Shown here in pieces: positions 45,208-57,668 of a stretch of DNA of 60,946 bases; within the stretch, counting starts at the first letter, position 1; each line of letters opens with the position of its first letter. A program made the translations under genes and the position numbers. The notes under the pieces were generated by a model. That model ran no database searches, was not told the DNA's origin, and saw only the letters and a program-made list of their open reading frames with translations. Location of the stretch: assembly GCA_021157585.1 (NCBI GenBank), contig JAGGWH010000040.1, positions 1 through 60,946 of the forward strand, written 5' to 3'. Origin of the DNA: Bacteroidales bacterium. GTDB lineage: Bacteria > Bacteroidota > Bacteroidia > Bacteroidales > UBA12170.

Positions 45208-46761
45208 ATGAAACAGGCGAAAATTCTTTGGGTTGATGACGAAATTGAAATCTTAAAACCTCATATTTTATTTCTTGAACAGAAGGGATATAGTGTTAAA
45301 GCATTAAATAATGGGATGGATGCTATTGAATTAATTGATAATGAGCGTTTTGATATTGTTTTTTTAGATGAGAATATGCCTGGTTTATCAGGTATCGAAA
45401 CTCTTGAAAAAATAAAGGTTAGTCATCCGCAATTACCCATAGTGATGATAACAAAAAGTGAAGAAGAATCGATTATGGAAGATGCTATCGGATCTAATAT
45501 TGCTGATTATTTGATAAAGCCGGTAAAGCCAAATCAAATCTTACTTTCGCTTAAAAAGAATTTGGATACAAAAAAATTGGTTAGCGAAAAAACTATCAGT
45601 TCATATCAGCAGCAGTTCAGGAATATTAGTATGGAATTGTCGGGCAATTTAGATTTTAATGATTGGATAGATATTTATAAAAAGCTTGTTCATTGGGAGC
45701 TGAGTTTAGATATATCTGAAGATGATAGTATGAGCGAAATTCTTTTACAACAAAAAGAAGAAGCTAATGCTCTGTTTGGCAAATTTATTAGTAGGAATTA
45801 TGTAGATTGGCATAAATCCGGAAATGCTGATACTCCTTTACTTTCACATATGTTATTAAAGAAAAGAGTTTTGCCTGAATTGCAAAAAGACAAATCCGTT
45901 TTTCTATTTTTGATAGATAACTTGCGTTACGATCAATGGAAAAGTATAGAGTCTTTGTTGGAGCCGTATTTTTATGCCGAAAAAGAAGAGTTATATTACA
46001 GTATCTTACCAACAGCAACACAGTATGCCAGAAATGGATTATTTGCCGGAATGATGCCCTTAGAAATTCAAAAGAAAATGCCACAGTATTGGGTTGATGA
46101 ATTGGAAACTCCGGGAAAAAATAGCTATGAAGAGGAGTTGCTTTCAAATTTATTTTCTCGTTCTCATATCAATCCTTCTTTTTCATATCATAAAGTTTTG
46201 AATATGGATTTTGCAAAGCGTTTGCTTGATAAATTCCCGAATTTGTTAAATAATCAATTTAATGTAATTGTATACAATTTTGTGGATATGCTGTCACATG
46301 CACGTACCGATTTAGAGATACTGCGCGAACTTGCTGAAGACGAATCTGCTTATCGTTCAATAACCCGTTCTTGGTTTGAACATTCGCCGCTTTTTGATAT
46401 GCTAAAATACTTATCTGAAAAAAAAGTTAGTGTAATAATTACTACCGATCATGGATCCATTCGTGTAAAAAATCCTGTTCAAATTATTGGAGATAAAAAC
46501 GTTAGTTCTAATCTACGATATAAAACAGGTAAAAATCTGGCTTATAAACCTAAAGAAGTATTTGAGCTTAGAAATCCTGAAGAAGTTGGCCTGACAAAGC
46601 AGTATCTTTCTTCAAGTTTTATTTTTGCTCGTCAAACTGATTTTTTCGCATATAAAAATAACTTTAATTATTATGCGTCTCACTATAAAAATACATTTCA
46701 GCATGGAGGAATTTCAATGGAAGAAATGCTAATTCCCTTAGTGTTTTTAAAAGCTAAGTAA
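45208..46761 (+). CDS. porX: PorX-type response regulator with PglZ phosphodiesterase domain
   Basis: 517 residues. Residues 1-120 form a receiver domain with Asp10/Asp11, phospho-acceptor Asp54 (VFLDENMPG), Thr82 and Lys104. A helical linker leads to an alkaline-phosphatase-superfamily PglZ domain (about 200-517), with FLFLIDNLRYDQW, the Thr-containing SILPTATQYARNG and ITTDHGSIRV. This architecture is PorX, the regulator of type IX secretion, which works with histidine kinase PorY and, in Porphyromonas gingivalis, the ECF sigma factor SigP. PorY is not in this window. tsaE and ald follow. Confidence 0.93.
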   Translation: MKQAKILWVDDEIEILKPHILFLEQKGYSVKALNNGMDAIELIDNERFDIVFLDENMPGLSGIETLEKIKVSHPQLPIVMITKSEEESIMEDAIGSNIADYLIKPVKPNQILLSLKKNLDTKKLVSEKTISSYQQQFRNISMELSGNLDFNDWIDIYKKLVHWELSLDISEDDSMSEILLQQKEEANALFGKFISRNYVDWHKSGNADTPLLSHMLLKKRVLPELQKDKSVFLFLIDNLRYDQWKSIESLLEPYFYAEKEELYYSILPTATQYARNGLFAGMMPLEIQKKMPQYWVDELETPGKNSYEEELLSNLFSRSHINPSFSYHKVLNMDFAKRLLDKFPNLLNNQFNVIVYNFVDMLSHARTDLEILRELAEDESAYRSITRSWFEHSPLFDMLKYLSEKKVSVIITTDHGSIRVKNPVQIIGDKNVSSNLRYKTGKNLAYKPKEVFELRNPEEVGLTKQYLSSSFIFARQTDFFAYKNNFNYYASHYKNTFQHGGISMEEMLIPLVFLKAK

Positions 46762-46849
46762 AGTTGTTTTTTCTATTTTTGTATAAAATATTCTTGATGA
46801 CTCAGATATAAGAAGTTTGGGTTGTGTCTAAATAAAAAAATATAAACAA

Positions 46850-47275
46850 ATGACTAAATCTTTTACTATTCAGTCGGTTAATGAACTAAAAGTTGTTGCC
46901 GAAGCATTAGTCGAAAGTATGAATAAAGCAAATGTTTTTGCATTTTTCGGATCGATGGGAGCAGGGAAAACTACTTTTATTCAATCTATTTGCGAAGTAC
47001 TTGGAGTAGAAAATGTAGTTAATTCTCCAACTTTTGCCATAGTGAATGAGTACGTTCATCCTAATGGAGATCCAATATTTCATTTTGATTTTTATCGTTT
47101 AAATTCTCCCGGCGAAGCTGTTGATATTGGCTATCACGAATATGTAGAAAGTGGTTATTTATGTTTAATGGAATGGCCGGAGAAAATTGAGAACCTTTTG
47201 CCTGAAAATTGCGTATACGTTTACATTAAATCGGAGGATAATACAGGTTTGCGTACTATTTCTTGGGAAGTGTAA
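46850..47275 (+). CDS. tsaE: tRNA threonylcarbamoyladenosine ATPase TsaE
   Basis: 141 residues. FGSMGAGKTTFIQSI near residue 34 is the Walker A motif, and VNSPTFAIVNEY and HFDFYRL are the other TsaE motifs. With TsaB, TsaC and TsaD it makes t6A at position 37 of ANN-decoding tRNAs. The order porX-tsaE-ald is a known Bacteroidota arrangement. ald starts 22 bases downstream. Confidence 0.94.
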   Translation: MTKSFTIQSVNELKVVAEALVESMNKANVFAFFGSMGAGKTTFIQSICEVLGVENVVNSPTFAIVNEYVHPNGDPIFHFDFYRLNSPGEAVDIGYHEYVESGYLCLMEWPEKIENLLPENCVYVYIKSEDNTGLRTISWEV

Positions 47276-47297
47276 ATCCTGAAACAACCTTATTTAT

Positions 47298-48521
47298 ATG
47301 GTAGCTGACGAAAAAAATATTTCAAATTTTTCCTTTTCAACACAGTTGATGCCTAAAGAAGAAAAATTAGCTTCTTCGCCTAAAAAGGCAAGTTTAACCA
47401 TAGCTGTTTTAAAAGAAAATAGTGACACTGAAAGAAGAGTTTGCTTAAGCCCTGAAGCCGTTGGATTACTTGTTCAGAACGGACATACTATCCTTGTTGA
47501 ACGAGGTGCCGGATTGGCATCGCAATTCGAAGATGTAAATTATAGTGAAGAGGGTGCCCGTATTGTAGAATCAAAAGAAGAGCTTCTAAAAGCGCAGATA
47601 ATATTAAAAGTTTCTGCTTTGAATGAAAAGGAAATAGCTAGTTTGGGAAAAAACCAGACTTTATTTACCACTTTGCAATTATTGTCGCGAGACAAAAACT
47701 ATTTTATGCAATTAGCTGAGCGGAAGATAACTGCTTTAGCCTTTGAGAAAATAAAAGATAATACAGGATCTTATCCTATCATTCGCTCTATGGGCGAAAT
47801 TGTTGGAAATACATCTTTGCATGTTGCAGCAAAATATTTAGCTCATCATAAATACGGAAATGGTAGTATGTTAGGAGGGATTCCCGGATTAAAACCTACT
47901 GAAGTGGTTATTATCGGCGCAGGAACTGTTGCAGAAAATGCTGCTAAAGCTGCAATAGGAATGGGTGCTCTTGTGAAAGTTTTTGATAATTCGGTTTATC
48001 GTTTACGGCGACTTCAAAATAATATCCAAAGTAAAATATTTACATCTATTTTGCAACCAAAAAATTTAGAAGAGGCACTAACTACTGCCGATGTGGTTTT
48101 AGGCGCTATGCGAAAAAGAAAAGGTATATTATCGTTTATGGTTCCGGCTACTATGATTCAAAAAATGAAAAAGGGATCTGTAATAGTCGATGTAAGTATA
48201 GATCAGGGTGGGTTATTTGAGACTTCTCGTCTTACAACACATATTAAACCGGTATATCAAGAGTTTGGAGTAACACACTATTGTGTTCCAAATATAGCTT
48301 CTAGTGTGCCTCACACTGCAAGTCAAGCTTTGTCTAATTTCTTTATGCCTGTGATTTTACAAATAGCCGAGGATGGTGGTGTAGATCAACTTTTACGAAA
48401 TGACGAAGGCTTTCGGTCGGGAGTTTATCTGTTTAACGGAGTGGTTACATATAAAGAAATTGGGGAAACTTTTCACTTGGCTTATCGTGATTTGGAACTT
48501 CTTTTAGCTGTTTTGCATTAA
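47298..48521 (+). CDS. ald: alanine dehydrogenase
   Basis: 407 residues; the first ~35 are a phylum-typical extension before LTIAVLKENSDTERRVCLSPEAV. Other Ald/PNT motifs are VVIIGAGTVAENAAKAA (NAD binding, near residue 210) and VPNIASSVPHTASQALSN near residue 333. The enzyme reversibly deaminates L-alanine to pyruvate with NAD, which lets a fermenter use or form alanine. It is probably cotranscribed with tsaE. Confidence 0.9.
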   Translation: MVADEKNISNFSFSTQLMPKEEKLASSPKKASLTIAVLKENSDTERRVCLSPEAVGLLVQNGHTILVERGAGLASQFEDVNYSEEGARIVESKEELLKAQIILKVSALNEKEIASLGKNQTLFTTLQLLSRDKNYFMQLAERKITALAFEKIKDNTGSYPIIRSMGEIVGNTSLHVAAKYLAHHKYGNGSMLGGIPGLKPTEVVIIGAGTVAENAAKAAIGMGALVKVFDNSVYRLRRLQNNIQSKIFTSILQPKNLEEALTTADVVLGAMRKRKGILSFMVPATMIQKMKKGSVIVDVSIDQGGLFETSRLTTHIKPVYQEFGVTHYCVPNIASSVPHTASQALSNFFMPVILQIAEDGGVDQLLRNDEGFRSGVYLFNGVVTYKEIGETFHLAYRDLELLLAVLH

Positions 48522-48530
48522 AACAAATAT

Positions 48531-49613
48531 ATGATCCTTTGGATATATAAGGATACTCGTTTTTATATTGAAAGAAAAAAACTGAGTTTATTAGTTTTAT
48601 TTCTTATCGTATTTCCATTTTTATTATTTGCACAAGAGCATAAAGCCAATAATGAACAAGAAAAAACATTTAGGCTGATGTTTTATAATGTTGAAAATTA
48701 TTTTGATTCTTTTGACGATACTTTAACAAATGATAACGAATTCTTGCCTGACGGAATAAGAAACTGGAATTATTCACGCTTTTTAAAAAAGAGAAATAAT
48801 ATTTATAAAACAATTATGGCCGTTGGAGAGTGGGAGCCTCCTGCTATTATTGGACTTAGCGAAGTGGAAAATCGTTTTGTCTTAAATCAGTTGGTTTATA
48901 AAACGCCTTTTTCTCAATTTGATTATCGTATAATTCACGAAGAATCACCTGATAGGAGAGGCATTGATGTGGCTTTGCTCTTTAACCCAAAAGTATTCCA
49001 AGTTATTAATCATAAAGCTATTACTATAAATTTTCCATTCGATAAAGAATTAAAGACAAGGGATATTTTATATGTAAAAGGACTTGTCTTTGGTAGAGAT
49101 ACACTTCATATTTTTGTTAACCATTGGCCATCTCGATATGGCGGTGAGCTTTTTTCGAGACCAAAAAGAATTTTCGTTGCACAGCAATTAGCTAAACATA
49201 TAGATTCAATTTTACAAGAAAATAAAAATGCTGCTATAGTAGTAATGGGCGATTTTAACGATTATCCATTTAACCAAAGTATAAAAAAGGAGCTAAAAGC
49301 AGGGAAAGATCTTAATAATAGATTAATAAACCTTATGCCTAAGAACGATTATACTGTTGGAACAAATAAATATGATGGACAATGGGGTATTTTGGATCAA
49401 ATTATGGTTTCGCCAGTTCTACTTTCACAAGATAAGCCTATCTTTGTAAATGGGGAAGCTCAAATTTTTGATGCTGATTTTTTATTGCAAGAAGATGCTA
49501 AATTTTTAGGAAACATGCCTTTTCGTACCTTTTTTGGGGGGGAATATAGGGGTGGATTTAGTGATCATTTGCCTGTTTTTGTCGATTTTACCTTAAAAAT
49601 GGATAAAATGTAG
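48531..49613 (+). CDS. secreted endonuclease/exonuclease/phosphatase-family protein
   Basis: 360 residues with a hydrophobic N-terminal segment ending LLFAQ, consistent with a signal peptide. The EEP fold shows FRLMFYNVENYFD (Asn metal ligand), GLSEVENR (Glu), VNHWPSR (His), VMGDFNDYP (Asp, Asn) and FSDHLPVFVDF (Asp, His). Members hydrolyse DNA, phosphoinositides or sphingomyelin, and the substrate here is unknown. It follows ald by 9 bases. A gap of about 95 bases separates it from the sigma gene. Confidence 0.85.
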   Translation: MILWIYKDTRFYIERKKLSLLVLFLIVFPFLLFAQEHKANNEQEKTFRLMFYNVENYFDSFDDTLTNDNEFLPDGIRNWNYSRFLKKRNNIYKTIMAVGEWEPPAIIGLSEVENRFVLNQLVYKTPFSQFDYRIIHEESPDRRGIDVALLFNPKVFQVINHKAITINFPFDKELKTRDILYVKGLVFGRDTLHIFVNHWPSRYGGELFSRPKRIFVAQQLAKHIDSILQENKNAAIVVMGDFNDYPFNQSIKKELKAGKDLNNRLINLMPKNDYTVGTNKYDGQWGILDQIMVSPVLLSQDKPIFVNGEAQIFDADFLLQEDAKFLGNMPFRTFFGGEYRGGFSDHLPVFVDFTLKMDKM

Positions 49614-49707
49614 GCTTGTAACTATCAGGTTATGAGTAAAATAAAAAATAAATGAAAAAAAGTTGGGTTTTTAGGGTAACGTTTTGCTAAAATCAACCAT
49701 AAATAGA

Positions 49708-50286
49708 GTGAAGAAAGAAAGGTATAACGACAGAGAAATTATAGAAGGTTTAAGGCATGGAAATGATAATGTTTTGAATTTTATTTATAAAAATTATTAC
49801 GGAGCTGTTAGAAATTTAGTTTTAAATTCTTTTGGCAGCGAAGAACAGGCTCGGGATATCTTTCAGGAAGTAATTATAGTTATTTATAACAAATTGCAAG
49901 ACAGCAATTTTAAAATTACAAGTTCTTTTTTTACTTTTTTCTATGCAGTGGTTAAAAACACTTGGCTCGATTTCAGAAAGAGAAAAAAAACAAATCCTAT
50001 AGACTATGCCTTGGATTTTAATGATGAAATTGACGTGAATAGTGATGATATTAGTTTTCTTGCCACAAGAGCTTTGCAGAACAATTTATTTAATAGTTGT
50101 TTGAAACAATTATCTGAAAATTGCCAAAAAATATTGGAATTATCTATGGATTATTATAGTCACAAGGAAATTGCTGTAAAAATGAATCTGAAAAGTGGGG
50201 CTTATGTACGTAAACGCAAATCGGAATGTTTAAAATTGTTGATAGAAAAAATAAGAAAGGATACTTTGTTTAAGGAGTTATTATGA
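49708..50286 (+). CDS. ECF-type RNA polymerase sigma factor
   Basis: About 192 residues from a GTG at 49708 (VKKERYNDREII). A TTG at 49684 is the only other in-frame start after the stop at 49672, and no ATG is available. Sigma region 2 is seen at NVLNFIYKNYYGAVRNLV and SEEQARDIFQEV. Region 4 is ILELSMDYYSHKEIAVKMNLKSGAYVRKRK, a helix-turn-helix for the -35 element. Its stop overlaps the next ATG (ATGA), so the pair is translationally coupled. Its position 2.9 kb after porX makes it a candidate PorX partner. Confidence 0.85.
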   Translation: MKKERYNDREIIEGLRHGNDNVLNFIYKNYYGAVRNLVLNSFGSEEQARDIFQEVIIVIYNKLQDSNFKITSSFFTFFYAVVKNTWLDFRKRKKTNPIDYALDFNDEIDVNSDDISFLATRALQNNLFNSCLKQLSENCQKILELSMDYYSHKEIAVKMNLKSGAYVRKRKSECLKLLIEKIRKDTLFKELL

Positions 50287-51032
50287 AAAAAGATCACGAA
50301 GAATTAATGCTAGCGAAAATCTTTAACGAATTAAATGAGGAACAGTCTGCTCGTTTTGATCATAATCTGGCTACAGATGATGATTTCAGGAAAGAGTTTG
50401 AACTTTTCAAACAGTTATTCTCTAATTTAAAAGACAAAAAATCGATGGATCTTAGAAGTAAGTTAGATTCAATTTATGAAGAAATGTATGTAACAAAAAA
50501 GGAGGCTAAAATGATACAATTAATTAAACGAAATTGGTATTCGATAGCTGCTGCAGTAGCAGTATTATTTATGGTAGGTGCTTATTGGTTTGCGGGAGTA
50601 AATCAACAAGATTGGAATCAAGACCTTTATAATAAGTATTATCAAGAGGATGAGGTTTTTGTTAATACAAGAAGTGTTGCTAATTTCGATACGGATGTTT
50701 TGCATCTTGGTATGACGTTTCTTGAAAAGAAAGAGTTCTCGGCTGCATTAACAGAGTTTAATAAATTACCTACCAGTATTACGGCAAATTATTATGCCGG
50801 AGTAGCAAATATGGAACTTGATAATTACCAAATTGCTATTTCTAAGTTCGATTATGTGATAGAAGATTATTTGAACCTGTTTTATGATCAGGCGCAATGG
50901 TATAAAGGATTATGTTTAGTCAAATTAGAAAAGAAGTCTGAAGCTATTGAACTATTCGATCAGATAACAAATACAGAAAGTTATTTTAAAGAAAAAGCTA
51001 AACAAATTTTGACTGACTTACGGAAGAACTAA
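50283..51032 (+). CDS. membrane protein with TPR region, putative anti-sigma partner
   Basis: 249 residues. An acidic N-terminal ~75 residues (LMLAKIFNELNEEQSARFDHNL) resembles anti-sigma cytoplasmic domains. One transmembrane helix follows (SIAAAVAVLFMVGAYWFAG, about 83-101), then an outside part of TPR-like helices (VLHLGMTFLEKKEFSAALTEF, YYAGVANMELDNYQIAI, WYKGLCLVKLEKKSEAIELF). There is no HxxxCxxC zinc motif. The ATGA overlap with the sigma factor suggests they act together. The TPR part could sense an envelope protein. Whether it inhibits the sigma factor is inferred. Confidence 0.7.
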   Translation: MKKDHEELMLAKIFNELNEEQSARFDHNLATDDDFRKEFELFKQLFSNLKDKKSMDLRSKLDSIYEEMYVTKKEAKMIQLIKRNWYSIAAAVAVLFMVGAYWFAGVNQQDWNQDLYNKYYQEDEVFVNTRSVANFDTDVLHLGMTFLEKKEFSAALTEFNKLPTSITANYYAGVANMELDNYQIAISKFDYVIEDYLNLFYDQAQWYKGLCLVKLEKKSEAIELFDQITNTESYFKEKAKQILTDLRKN

Positions 51033-54581: not shown

Positions 54582-54966
54582 TAGGTACTTTTGAACCTGA
54601 ATTATTCATAGTGCATTGTCCGCTGAATAGAGCTCCGGATTCAATTGATAATTTACCGGTTTTAATGTTTCCGTTTAAGTTAACTGTAGTTTTTAAAAAT
54701 AGGAGTTTTTCAACTTCAACATTACCTTTTATTGTTCCCGCAAAATCTGCATTCTGACAGAAAATATCTCCTTCTACAATACCACTTTGTCCGATAACAA
54801 CTTTTCCGGTAGACCTAATGCTTCCTATTAGTTTACCAACTATTCTAAAATCTCCCTCAGAAGTAATATCTCCTTTTACTATCGTTCCCATACTGATAGT
54901 TGTAACCGCATTAGTATCGAATTCCCCGTTTTTTGCCATTTTTTTATCTTTAGAATTACTAAACAT
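54550..54966 (-). CDS. bactofilin (polymer-forming cytoskeletal protein)
   Basis: 138 residues: a short tail, then a bactofilin beta-helix (about 22-118) with TISMGTIVKGDITSEGDFRI and the repeated GDI/GNI turns, then a basic C-terminal tail. Bactofilins polymerise without nucleotide at the membrane and place cell-wall enzymes. It begins at the porW stop (TAATG) and lies close to a divergent M23 endopeptidase gene, a recurrent functional partner in other bacteria. Confidence 0.92.
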   Translation of the reverse strand: MFSNSKDKKMAKNGEFDTNAVTTISMGTIVKGDITSEGDFRIVGKLIGSIRSTGKVVIGQSGIVEGDIFCQNADFAGTIKGNVEVEKLLFLKTTVNLNGNIKTGKLSIESGALFSGQCTMNNSGSKVPNENKQTKKGS

Positions 54967-57668
54967 TAGTATTTATATTTTTTTTTGAAAAATGAATCGT
55001 ATTTTTCAATATTCTTATCGTTAAAGAAACGCGAATAATTTTCAGCCGAAATTACAAAAGTTTTGGAATCATTCCTAAGAAGAGCAGGAAAAACGTAGCT
55101 GTCAGAAATGAAGGACTTATAATATTTCATAGCATCATCTTGATTTGTGAATTCTCCAATACTAATTACATATTCTTGATTGACAAAAGGATAGGAGGTA
55201 AGACTTAGGTTTTGTATTTGCTTTTTATTAAAGTCTTGTATTCTAACTTGAATCGCTTTTACATTTATTTTTTCTGCATCAATAATTATTAATACATACT
55301 GTTTGTCATTAGGATTAAAAGTATAAAGTTTTAAAGCGTCATTAAGCAATTTGTCAAGAGAAATATCGGTAGTGTTATCAGGCGTTTCAATAGACTCGAA
55401 TGCCTTTCCTCGACGTGATAAAATATTTTTGGCTTGTGGTGTTATTTCTGCATTAGGATAGAGGTTTATTAGTTTTTCCAAATTAGCATATAGAGAATCG
55501 ACCACACTTGTTTGTGCCATCGAAAGGGCTTTTATATATAAAAAATTGGCTTTTAATGGATTATTTTCCGCTTTGCTTAATGCTTGATTAGCGTGATGTA
55601 AAGAAAGTAAATATTGACCTTTTTCAAAGGCTTGATAGGTGCGTTTGTATTGCTCTTTAAAATAGCTTTGCTTTTTCTCCATCTCACGATAATAATTCGG
55701 GTCTTGAACCAAAATAGCGTAATCGGTGTTCGGATAATTACTTATAATTAAGTTTTTATATTTATTTTTTTTATCTGCGTCTGTATTTTTATCATAGAGT
55801 TGATACAGTTGAAAATAAACTTGTAATTGCTGAGGATGGTTTTTAATGCGTTTGACAAAATCCTCGAAAATTAAAAGGGCTTTGTTATTTAGTTTTAAGT
55901 CTTCTTTGTAAATAAATCCGGCTTGATAAAGTGCATTGGCAATTTGTGTGTTTGCATTAGCAATTTGTTCTTCTGTACGAGGAATATTTTTTAAATAATA
56001 ATTTCGTGATTTTGGGTCTGTGTCTGATCCGCCACTTAAGCTGTCGTTGGTGTTTTTGTTTAGCTCTTCGTCTTTATTAATGTCAACCCCAGCTGTATTT
56101 ACAGCCCGTTTATTACTTAATCTCCAGTTATCCGCCAAAGCTCTATTCCCCCATTTTGCAATAAATTCGGTATAGCCCATACTTCTGGCTTGGGGATTAT
56201 AAAAGTACCATTGTCCACCCCCTAAAGGCATTCCCATTCCTCCAGGCGAACTTCTCATCTGATTTCCCATAGCAATGCTTTGTTGTTTAGCAAATTCCTC
56301 ATCGCGTTTTTGATCTTCTTTTTCTCTGATAAGGGAAATGATACTGTCGGCTATAGCATATAATTTAGAATCAGGAAGTTGTCCAAGAAGTAAAAGGCTG
56401 TCTTGTTGTTGAACAATACTAAGCTGCTTAGATAAATTATTATAAATACCGGCTTCTTTTATAATTTGATTGTAATTATCGTAGGCAACAGGTAATTGCT
56501 GGATAGCAGTATCGTAATAATTAGCAGCTAATGAAAAACGCCCTTTATTAAATAATAGCTCGGCGACTTTTAATGCTGCTTTTGCTTTTTGTGTTTTATT
56601 TTCGGTACTGCTTTTTACTGCTGCTCTCAAATTTTTAATGGCAGACAGACTATCATTATCTTTTATGTCAATATCTGCCAAGGCATAATAAATCTGATCT
56701 AAATAATTCTTGTTTTTGCTATCTTTTAGCATTTTAAGCAAGTTCTTACGTAAGTCTTTGCCTCCCTCAGAATTGTGAGTATACAAAAATGCCATATTGA
56801 TTTTTGCATTAAAAGCCATTCTGTAATTGGTATTTAACTTAATAACTCTTTGATAATAAGTGCTTGCTATTCCCGGCTGATTGTCTTCTTGGTTCAGCTG
56901 TGCCAAAATATATGATATACGAGCAATTGTTTTTCTATTTATAGGTAATTCTAAAGCATGCTCTAAATGAGGTTTCGCTTTCTCAGCTTGCTTGCTTTTT
57001 AAATATAAATCGGCATAAACCAAGTCTAAATTCTTTCTTATAAAGGGTGTTTGTTCTTCATCAGAAATAATACTTAACTCGTTTAAGAGACTAAGTGCTT
57101 TTTGAAAATTTCCGGTTTCTATAAATGTTTTAGCTAGCCAAAGTAGAGCATCGTCTTTAATTTTATTGTAATAATATCTACTGATAATAAAATTAAAACT
57201 TTGGCGAGCACTGGTGTATTCTTGCTTTAAGAAGTTGGCTTTGCCAATTAGTAAATAGCTATCGTCTATCCACTTACAATGCTCTCTATTTTTAAACCAC
57301 ATACTATGCCTTAGAGCTGTAATAGAACCCTTTTCAATAGCTCTGTCCATATCAGCCGAAATAGAAGATGCCTGTGTTTCGTCGCCATAATTGAAAACAA
57401 ATAATGTTTTAGTATAATCATCGGTAACATTCTTATTTAATTTTGCTATTCCGTTTTTTAGACTTTCATTTCCATTCCACCAACTATTGTAGTGAGCGGT
57501 AAGATTATGGTAGGTACGTCGGCTAAAGGTGTTCTTTTTTGTAGAACAAGACGATAGTAAGAGCAATACAAATAAAAGTACGATTCTGTTTTTTGAAAAA
57601 ACGGATTTAAACTTATTGATTGATTTTAATTGTTTCAATGACACTATCTGTAAACTGTAATCTTGCAA
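54966..57668 (-). CDS. porW: type IX secretion lipoprotein PorW/SprE
   Basis: 900 residues. A lipobox LSSC (about Cys41) follows a membrane segment. STKKNTFSRRTYHNLTAHYNSWWNGNESLK is the hallmark opening of PorW/SprE, followed by many TPR repeats (about 130-430 and 600-740) and a C-terminal domain ending FFKKKYKY. PorW bridges the PorLM motor and the outer-membrane secretion parts in P. gingivalis; SprE is needed for gliding and secretion in Flavobacterium. The ATG at 57668 is used. A GTG at 57644 is an alternative start. porX is 8 kb away. Confidence 0.92.
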   Translation of the reverse strand: MQDYSLQIVSLKQLKSINKFKSVFSKNRIVLLFVLLLLSSCSTKKNTFSRRTYHNLTAHYNSWWNGNESLKNGIAKLNKNVTDDYTKTLFVFNYGDETQASSISADMDRAIEKGSITALRHSMWFKNREHCKWIDDSYLLIGKANFLKQEYTSARQSFNFIISRYYYNKIKDDALLWLAKTFIETGNFQKALSLLNELSIISDEEQTPFIRKNLDLVYADLYLKSKQAEKAKPHLEHALELPINRKTIARISYILAQLNQEDNQPGIASTYYQRVIKLNTNYRMAFNAKINMAFLYTHNSEGGKDLRKNLLKMLKDSKNKNYLDQIYYALADIDIKDNDSLSAIKNLRAAVKSSTENKTQKAKAALKVAELLFNKGRFSLAANYYDTAIQQLPVAYDNYNQIIKEAGIYNNLSKQLSIVQQQDSLLLLGQLPDSKLYAIADSIISLIREKEDQKRDEEFAKQQSIAMGNQMRSSPGGMGMPLGGGQWYFYNPQARSMGYTEFIAKWGNRALADNWRLSNKRAVNTAGVDINKDEELNKNTNDSLSGGSDTDPKSRNYYLKNIPRTEEQIANANTQIANALYQAGFIYKEDLKLNNKALLIFEDFVKRIKNHPQQLQVYFQLYQLYDKNTDADKKNKYKNLIISNYPNTDYAILVQDPNYYREMEKKQSYFKEQYKRTYQAFEKGQYLLSLHHANQALSKAENNPLKANFLYIKALSMAQTSVVDSLYANLEKLINLYPNAEITPQAKNILSRRGKAFESIETPDNTTDISLDKLLNDALKLYTFNPNDKQYVLIIIDAEKINVKAIQVRIQDFNKKQIQNLSLTSYPFVNQEYVISIGEFTNQDDAMKYYKSFISDSYVFPALLRNDSKTFVISAENYSRFFNDKNIEKYDSFFKKKYKY

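Follow-up and report, generated by a model that had tools for sequence, protein, structure and literature searches.

A predicted sigma/anti-sigma switch for a type IX-exported protein, encoded near porX in a Bacteroidales genus, with a TPR-CHAT protein as candidate trigger

We analyzed a 60,946-nucleotide contig from a Bacteroidales bacterium of the lineage UBA12170 (JAGGWH010000040.1 of assembly GCA_021157585.1; hereafter the window). Downstream of porX, which encodes a response regulator of the type IX secretion system (T9SS), the window encodes a sigma factor of the extracytoplasmic function (ECF) type and a membrane protein with a TPR domain. We think it probable that these two proteins form an autoregulated sigma/anti-sigma switch for a T9SS-exported protein, with a TPR-CHAT protease as the candidate trigger. 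The N-terminal helical domain of the anti-sigma factor would hold the sigma factor at the inner membrane, and its TPR domain would be exposed to the periplasm. Once released, the sigma factor would transcribe its own operon, an unlinked gene for a T9SS-exported protein of about 410 amino acids (hereafter the cargo), and a few other genes, lipoprotein-like ones among them. The most likely trigger would be a recurring third partner, a TPR-CHAT protein that would face the periplasm from a C-terminal membrane anchor and would cleave or pry off the anti-sigma factor. This action of CHAT on the anti-sigma factor is a conjecture from gene linkage and from the compartment that the two proteins appear to share.

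The original prediction for this locus was that the sigma factor may be the local equivalent of SigP, through which PorX acts in Porphyromonas gingivalis. A connection to T9SS does exist, but it appears to run through the predicted export-tailed target and not through SigP.

Results

The sigma factor and its predicted anti-sigma factor

The searches for the sigma factor, PorX and CHAT used a common set of 60 genomes, with G000 being the window's genome. The genus sample comprises 11 genomes, the window's included, and the genomes from outside the genus are draft contigs.

By its profile matches, the protein from the window is a divergent ECF sigma factor with regions 2 and 4 only: it scores 68 bits against TIGR02937 (cut-off 42.9), 30 bits against Pfam region 2 (cut-off 24), and 22.9 bits against Pfam region 4, slightly under the cut-off of 25.7. 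A search of solved structures returned eight ECF-type sigma chains, all from other groups. The mechanical start codon (TTG at 49684) falls inside the conserved promoter-like element that is described below, so the GTG at 49708 is the likelier start. This GTG stands just 2 bases 3' of the -10-like ATAAATA, so the sigma transcript may be leaderless.

The stop codon of the sigma gene (TGA, 50284-50286) overlaps the ATG of the next gene (at 50283), as originally noted, and the gene for the TPR protein directly follows the sigma gene in all 10 of the genus loci that have the sigma gene. In the TPR protein, a single hydrophobic stretch begins near residue 88, and the TPR domain spans roughly residues 133-249; the twelve members that we aligned are 20-68% identical to the window protein. 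The fold model places four helices within residues 2-71 and then a helix at 78-106 (with block means for the predicted local distance difference test, or pLDDT, of 41-87 there). The TPR domain is modelled with a pLDDT near 90 and matches the TPR domain of YbgF (Z 15.6, root-mean-square deviation 1.6, 114 residues). There are weak matches to anti-sigma profiles in 4 of the 12 members (NF052375, E <= 0.001) and in 3 of the 12 (LIMLP_03685). From the sequence and the model, we infer that the N-terminal helices are cytoplasmic, that the TPR domain is periplasmic, and that the protein inhibits the sigma factor. The earlier proposal that this protein is an envelope-side regulator thus stands as far as the overlapping genes, the membrane stretch, the predicted fold, and the conservation are concerned, but not on the anti-sigma profiles, whose scores are below cut-off. 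In G050, the sigma homologue (L029, G050:C12) lies in a 449-codon open frame that runs into the membrane partner, as if the two were fused or a stop codon had been lost in the assembly.

A promoter-like element at the sigma gene and at the cargo gene

The sigma gene is preceded by a conserved element with -35-like and -10-like parts, GGGTAACGTTTT-N10-ACCATAAATA. Its form across the genus is GGGTAACGTTTT-N10-ACCATWAATA or a variant, and it stands directly 5' of the sigma gene in all ten genus genomes with upstream sequence (the elements of G002 and G009 are variants beyond the search pattern and were recognized by eye). When up to 3 mismatches were allowed, ten genus genomes gave 22 sites, which include the sigma sites from which the pattern was built, versus 4 with the reversed pattern; with at most 1 mismatch, ten genomes from outside the genus gave 36 sites versus 4 in the control. 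The sites in the window's genome with 0-1 mismatch are those at the sigma gene, at G000:C114, and, with one mismatch, at G000:C169 (Table 1). T9SS machinery is encoded at none of these three strong sites, with five weaker sites left aside.

The site at G000:C114 precedes the cargo gene, starting 85 bases upstream. The cargo protein has 412 amino acids and an N-terminal hydrophobic stretch, and a protein profile found it in 8 of the 11 genus genomes. The element is present before all seven genus cargo genes with upstream sequence (G000, G001, G002, G003, G006, G008, and G009). The same protein of about 410 amino acids occurs in five other families (G015, G023, G030, G050, and G056), where it was reached by neighborhood or profile and not by the motif. 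In the first four of these, a family-specific version of the element (GTATTACCTTTT, GTATAACYTTTT, GGGTTACCTTTK) stands at both the sigma gene and the cargo gene, with identical spacing (those of G015, G023, and G050 were found by eye). An element also stands directly before the sigma gene in these four genomes and in G032. The cargo gene is divergent from the sigma gene in G015, G023, and G050 (the sigma frame of G023 is cut by a contig end), and G030 has the row cargo, CHAT, sigma factor, TPR protein. The cargo profile gave 40 rows, of which we counted 13 as cargo: 11 that cover nearly the full profile, G003 (cut by a contig end), and G010 (a truncated gene). We set aside the other 27, which are partial matches and almost all belong to other, or to much longer, proteins. 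All 13 cargo genomes have both a sigma match and CHAT.

Across genomes, the -35 parts of the sigma and cargo sites change together: 11 sigma/cargo pairs had 7 mismatches in total, versus a mean of 30.8 after shuffling, and 0 of 100000 shuffles were as low. In the genus alone, there were 5 mismatches versus a shuffled mean of 13.9, with 153 of 100000 shuffles as low. These pairs omit G005, G007, G010, and G056, which are without a cargo upstream region or a recognized sigma site, and the sites of G015, G023, and G050 were placed by eye. Relatedness is kept in the shuffles, yet within the genus the sigma and cargo sites are at separate places in the genome and change together. A matrix from 14 sigma sites scored at least 12 bits in 8 of the 11 cargo upstream regions; among the four outside families with a shared element, G030 alone had a high-scoring cargo site (26.7 bits). 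Of 335 control upstream regions, 19 scored at least 12 bits, and 17 of these belong to sigma-family genes, unfiltered cargos, or loci that were fetched by the pattern; the other two precede an ATP-binding cassette (ABC) exporter with a C39 peptidase domain (G032) and another ECF-like sigma factor (G015). Furthermore, 29,286 bases of G015 contain two copies of the 10-mer TATTACCTTT, one at the sigma gene and one at the cargo gene. In G056 it occurs once in 32,631 bases, before the cargo gene, and G050 has further copies elsewhere. We infer that the sigma factor recognizes the element.

The predicted exported target

Profiles identify an SdrD/prealbumin-like domain, a dockerin, and a T9SS C-terminal sorting domain in the cargo. 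The sorting domain of the G000 cargo is of type A (TIGR04183, 38.2 bits, cut-off 23; PF18962, 45.4 bits, cut-off 27), and TIGR04183 is above cut-off in all six cargos that were scanned. In the same six, the dockerin profile PF00404 passes the Pfam cut-off in the cargos of G000 and G009 (the predicted target scores 26.6 bits, cut-off 22.9). A fold model of low confidence (mean pLDDT 61) matches cohesins (2xdh, TMt 0.72). We conjecture that such a small cargo, if it combines the cohesin and the dockerin half of a pair, could assemble with itself on the cell surface. The window's genome does encode T9SS: SprA scores 2642 bits, and PorX and PorW are in the window.

The third strong site precedes the gene for a lipoprotein-like protein (L138:607-2157, G000:C169) with the HExxH stretch HESFH and no match in Pfam or NCBIfam. 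Another lipoprotein-like candidate target (L148, G006:C49) has the HExxH stretch HEVIH. At two further loci, the element precedes a helix-turn-helix-like protein of 66-67 amino acids: in L149 (G006:C182), this is followed by a Spi-inhibitor/C10 peptidase protein, and in L140 (G001:C96), by a lipoprotein whose tail is glycine-rich and bacteriocin-like, next to an ABC transporter. In G032, the C39-peptidase ABC exporter (L192:1902-4088, G032:C100) is divergent from CHAT and has the element upstream, which suggests that this family's regulon includes peptide export.

A soluble-looking histidine kinase (HisKA and HATPase_c domains) recurs beside the cargo gene or a TPR gene (Table 1), and in G009 it carries its own copy of the element. 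PorX is an orphan regulator, and this kinase could be its partner.

Table 1. Features of the window and of related loci
Feature	Location	Strand	Evidence or remark
porX, T9SS response regulator (receiver and PglZ)	45208-46761	+	NF052313 T9SS_RR_PorX, 800.3 bits (cut-off 300)
tsaE	46850-47275	+	belongs to the older porX-tsaE-ald order
ald, alanine dehydrogenase-like	47298-48521	+	profile match and gene order
EEP (endonuclease/exonuclease/phosphatase) family protein	48531-49613	+	directly 5' of the sigma promoter element
Promoter-like -35/-10 element	49674-49705	+	conserved, precedes the sigma gene
Divergent ECF sigma factor	49708-50286	+	TIGR02937 and Pfam region 2; likely start GTG 49708
Predicted anti-sigma factor: N-terminal helices, one membrane stretch, C-terminal TPR	50283-51032	+	fold model; anti-sigma profiles below cut-off
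porW/sprE, T9SS component	54966-57668	-	NF052312, 604.4 bits; outside the proposed switch
Element before the cargo gene	G000:C114, 5382-5413	-	0-1 mismatch
Element before the lipoprotein-like gene	G000:C169, 389-420		one mismatch
Histidine kinase	L137:5575-6372 (G000:C114)
Histidine kinase	L152:7855-8706 (G009)
Histidine kinase	L194:2537-3478 (G052)
Histidine kinase	L196:12758-13621 (G017)

A TPR-CHAT protein as a recurring third partner

For 12 of the 40 sigma matches, the contig also encodes a CHAT domain at a distance of no more than 6 kb, where about 0.36 would be expected by position alone. CHAT is found in 25 of 27 sigma-positive genomes versus 10 of 33 sigma-negative genomes. In 9 of the 13 cargo genomes, the contig with the cargo gene also carries CHAT downstream of it, a count that includes CHAT fragments at contig ends in G001 and G010, with other reading frames intervening. 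The CHAT protein of G000 (L185:5501-8701; CHAT, 187.4 bits; TPR_12, 90.2 bits) has a TPR array followed by a CHAT domain with the histidine and the cysteine (in the stretches HLAMH and SACNSG) of a predicted protease. It has a C-terminal hydrophobic stretch, and its N-terminus looks like an export signal by eye, though a hydropathy scan did not flag it. A search of solved structures with this protein gave matches in the TPR part only, so we base its likeness to Csx29, which is taken up in the Discussion, on the order of the domains and on the match to the CHAT family profile.

The fullest form of our proposal is that Bacteroidota have an envelope counterpart of the CRISPR-linked caspase-sigma switch, in which the periplasmic, membrane-anchored TPR-CHAT protease would cleave the transmembrane TPR anti-sigma factor and thereby turn on the sigma factor, which would act on itself and on the cohesin/dockerin T9SS protein. 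This would let the cell report its own surface or secretion state. We put it forward tentatively, as a possibility and not as our expectation. The best of the alternatives is that an ordinary sigma/anti-sigma pair controls a surface target and that CHAT is a bystander or serves to process the exported protein. This would account for the separation of CHAT from the sigma gene in the genus, for its apparently separate transcription, and for its place behind the cargo gene in those 9 cargo genomes. We nevertheless consider it somewhat unlikely, because the 12 CHAT-linked sigma genes are all among the 30 sigma matches from outside the genus, where they are spread over 10 genomes and stand in convergent, tandem, or divergent orientation to CHAT, and because 8 of the 10 gave no full-length match to the cargo that CHAT would process.

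Observations that weigh against the proposed switch

A number of observations count against the autoregulated switch, and we collect them here. First, as regards the anti-sigma assignment, the NF052375 match in the window protein is at 25.4 bits, versus a cut-off of 100, and a fold search with the whole protein returned TPR proteins and some helical designs and no anti-sigma fold, though it bore on the TPR part only and the N-terminal part of the model is of moderate confidence. Outside of the genus, the gene after the sigma gene is often, not always, one for a TPR protein. Second, the element has its exceptions. A looser pattern with 3 mismatches gave 56 sites in eleven genomes versus 36 in the control, which is near background, so we restricted ourselves to sites with 0-1 mismatch and to those that precede orthologues of the same genes. 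The matrix scores are low for the cargo upstream regions of G015 (1.3 bits), G050 (-4.5), and G056 (4.9). G004 has two perfect sites and no sigma match, which may reflect missing data (the genome is 75% complete). Third, the parts do not always occur together. G005 and G007 have the sigma gene and the element without a cargo match, and G007 has no CHAT match either. The sigma gene of G056 has neither the TPR partner nor a recognizable element and may therefore encode a non-cognate sigma factor; the sigma match in G023 may also be non-cognate. The T9SS tail is absent from the five other candidate target proteins that were scanned.

Fourth, within the genus of the window, CHAT is never beside the sigma gene, and in G000, CHAT and the cargo gene are on different contigs. 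We saw no element upstream of the CHAT gene of G000. In some genomes, the gap between the cargo gene and CHAT contains terminator-like hairpins and a TAnnTTTG box (both by eye), and we take this box to be the housekeeping -7 element of the Bacteroidota, so CHAT is probably expressed separately. This suggests that CHAT is not a target of the sigma factor. Finally, the members of the genus are not independent of each other.

The sigma gene near porX

Much of what was originally reported for this region is borne out. Profiles and inspection of residues confirm that PorX has a PglZ domain and intact receiver residues (D10, D11, D54, T82, and K104 are all present, and we take these to be the key residues of a receiver). 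The plus-strand run of porX, tsaE, ald, EEP, sigma factor, and TPR protein is in the order described; the sigma gene is within 3 kb of porX (2947 bases from the porX stop codon to the GTG); and porW lies about 4 kb beyond the TPR gene, on the minus strand. In G032, G024, G017, and G012, porW is directly upstream of porX, while the window has it on the opposite strand, about 8 kb off.

The idea that porX and the sigma gene stay close across genomes holds within the genus but not outside it. The whole row from porX to the TPR gene is on a single contig in 8 of the 11 genus genomes (in G003, porX is cut by a contig end). As for the others, the contig ends between the EEP and sigma genes in G006 and before porX in G008, and G004 is without a sigma match. 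The gene order is kept even though the sigma factors of G002, G003, G008, and G009 are only 35-41% identical, which makes it more than chance. Outside of the genus, none of the 15 genomes with both genes has the sigma gene within 6 kb of porX; G056 comes closest, with 13.5 kb between the two. In ten porX neighborhoods from other families, tsaE is the next gene in 8 and ald is present in 6, with no adjoining sigma gene. Proximity to porX thus characterizes this genus, and the sigma pair seems to be a late joiner of an older porX-tsaE-ald order.

We considered whether the gene order could reflect a recruited partnership, in which PorX of this genus binds and helps this sigma factor, although it is not the SigP orthologue. 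The row is kept despite the strong divergence of the sigma factor, and according to part of one paper (PMC4800418), PorX of P. gingivalis binds a sigma factor directly. This alternative is unlikely, however: porX-tsaE, often with ald, exists without the sigma gene in other families, so that a low rate of rearrangement may simply keep neighbors together; a separate promoter-like element for the sigma gene stands between it and the EEP gene; and a SigP orthologue is available to PorX.

Less probable still, and a marginal explanation in our judgment, is that the element is an operator for another regulator that controls both the sigma gene and the cargo gene. Further regulators are indeed hinted at by the soluble histidine kinase that is encoded next to the cargo gene. 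But the -35/-10-like spacing is fixed, the element is directly before the sigma gene in the genus and in G015, G023, G030, G032, and G050, and the sigma and cargo sites co-vary.

The SigP orthologue is encoded elsewhere

We obtained SigP sequences from P. gulae and P. loveana with a degenerate pattern from the published P. gingivalis sigP primers. P. gulae SigP has 193 amino acids, which is the published length, and both primer-encoded ends fit. (An exact 22-mer of P. gingivalis sigP had no match in the genome contigs that we searched.) Among the sigma factors of the window's genome, the best match of P. gulae SigP is L009 (G000:C28), at 145 bits and 41% identity, and the next is at 52 bits; in the reverse search from L009, SigP scores 145 bits and the next 73.9. 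In contrast, BLAST with P. gulae SigP did not report the window's sigma factor, which scores 18.8 bits with phmmer and 35.4 bits at best in the reverse search. Searching the whole genomes of P. gulae and P. loveana with the window's sigma factor gave a best E value of only 7.1e-4. With L009 as the reciprocal best match of SigP, the window's sigma factor is ruled out as the SigP orthologue, and the original assignment falls: a better orthologue at another place in the genome is an outcome that the original prediction itself named as refuting it. The L009 gene (L153, G000:C28) is beside a uvrA-like gene, and the next gene downstream is on the opposite strand.

The expected co-occurrence with T9SS was not seen either. 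There is a sigma match in 24 of the 53 PorX-positive genomes and in 3 of the 7 PorX-negative genomes, one of which (G008) is missing porX through a contig end. Of the 60 genomes, 53 have PorX and 27 have a sigma match, and no association is visible, so we dropped co-occurrence as evidence.

That the window's sigma factor is nonetheless the functional equivalent of SigP, activated by PorX and transcribing the genes for T9SS components, with the TPR protein as the sensor, is very improbable: the conserved adjacency to porX and the presence of T9SS favor it, but L009 is the reciprocal best match of SigP, neither P. gulae nor P. loveana has a good match to the window's sigma factor (best E 7.1e-4), 0 of 15 outside genomes have the sigma gene beside porX, and the three strong promoter sites (five weaker ones aside) are at the sigma gene, the cargo gene, and the lipoprotein-like gene.

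Discussion

If the proposed switch is correct, it would show how some T9SS bacteria regulate their exports. Also, a recurrent sigma factor with a membrane anti-sigma factor and a defined promoter would make the function of TPR-CHAT proteases in other settings directly testable. A more general caution is that a sigma gene near porX need not encode SigP, as the window's genome has its SigP orthologue elsewhere. We did not find the module described in the open-access literature that we searched by title and start of abstract, among the part of the matches that was listed, and it may be in print.

Transmembrane anti-sigma factors of the RseA and RskA/FecR types are released by proteolysis. Like them, the predicted anti-sigma factor has a gene that overlaps the sigma gene, a modelled helical domain that would be cytoplasmic, one putative membrane helix, and a domain that would be outside and sensory. 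It differs in that this outside domain would be a TPR domain and that the candidate protease is a caspase-like CHAT protein instead of a DegS-type or other site-1 protease.

The likeness to the PorXY-SigP system of P. gingivalis lies in a T9SS bacterium, an ECF sigma factor, and a link to surface export. In P. gingivalis, PorA is a T9SS-tailed protein that is tied to sigma signaling, according to part of PMC7712824. However, the sigma factor from the window belongs to another lineage, and its predicted target is a cargo gene and not the secretion machine. Also, unlike in the window, there is no TPR membrane protein among the open reading frames listed after sigP in the P. gulae locus that we read (by eye).

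In type III-E CRISPR systems, the TPR-CHAT protease Csx29 cleaves an inhibitor (Csx30) of an ECF sigma factor, CASP-sigma, as described in part of PMC10028731. The two systems have in common a TPR-CHAT protease, an ECF sigma factor, a sigma inhibitor (a predicted one in our case), and, according to the same part of that source, sigma motifs in the promoters of their own loci. In contrast to Csx30, the inhibitor here is predicted to be a membrane protein with a TPR domain, and the predicted targets are surface proteins; in contrast to Csx29, the CHAT protein has an N-terminus that resembles an export signal (by eye) and a C-terminal membrane stretch. We noticed no RNA-guided or CRISPR part in the loci that we read, where no search was aimed at cas profiles. 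By analogy, it is plausible that the proposed switch works like the type III-E circuit; we do not claim that it belongs to type III-E.

Finally, the predicted target resembles the cohesin-dockerin surface proteins, with its dockerin match and, in a low-confidence model, its cohesin-like fold. The difference is that both halves would be present in one small T9SS cargo.

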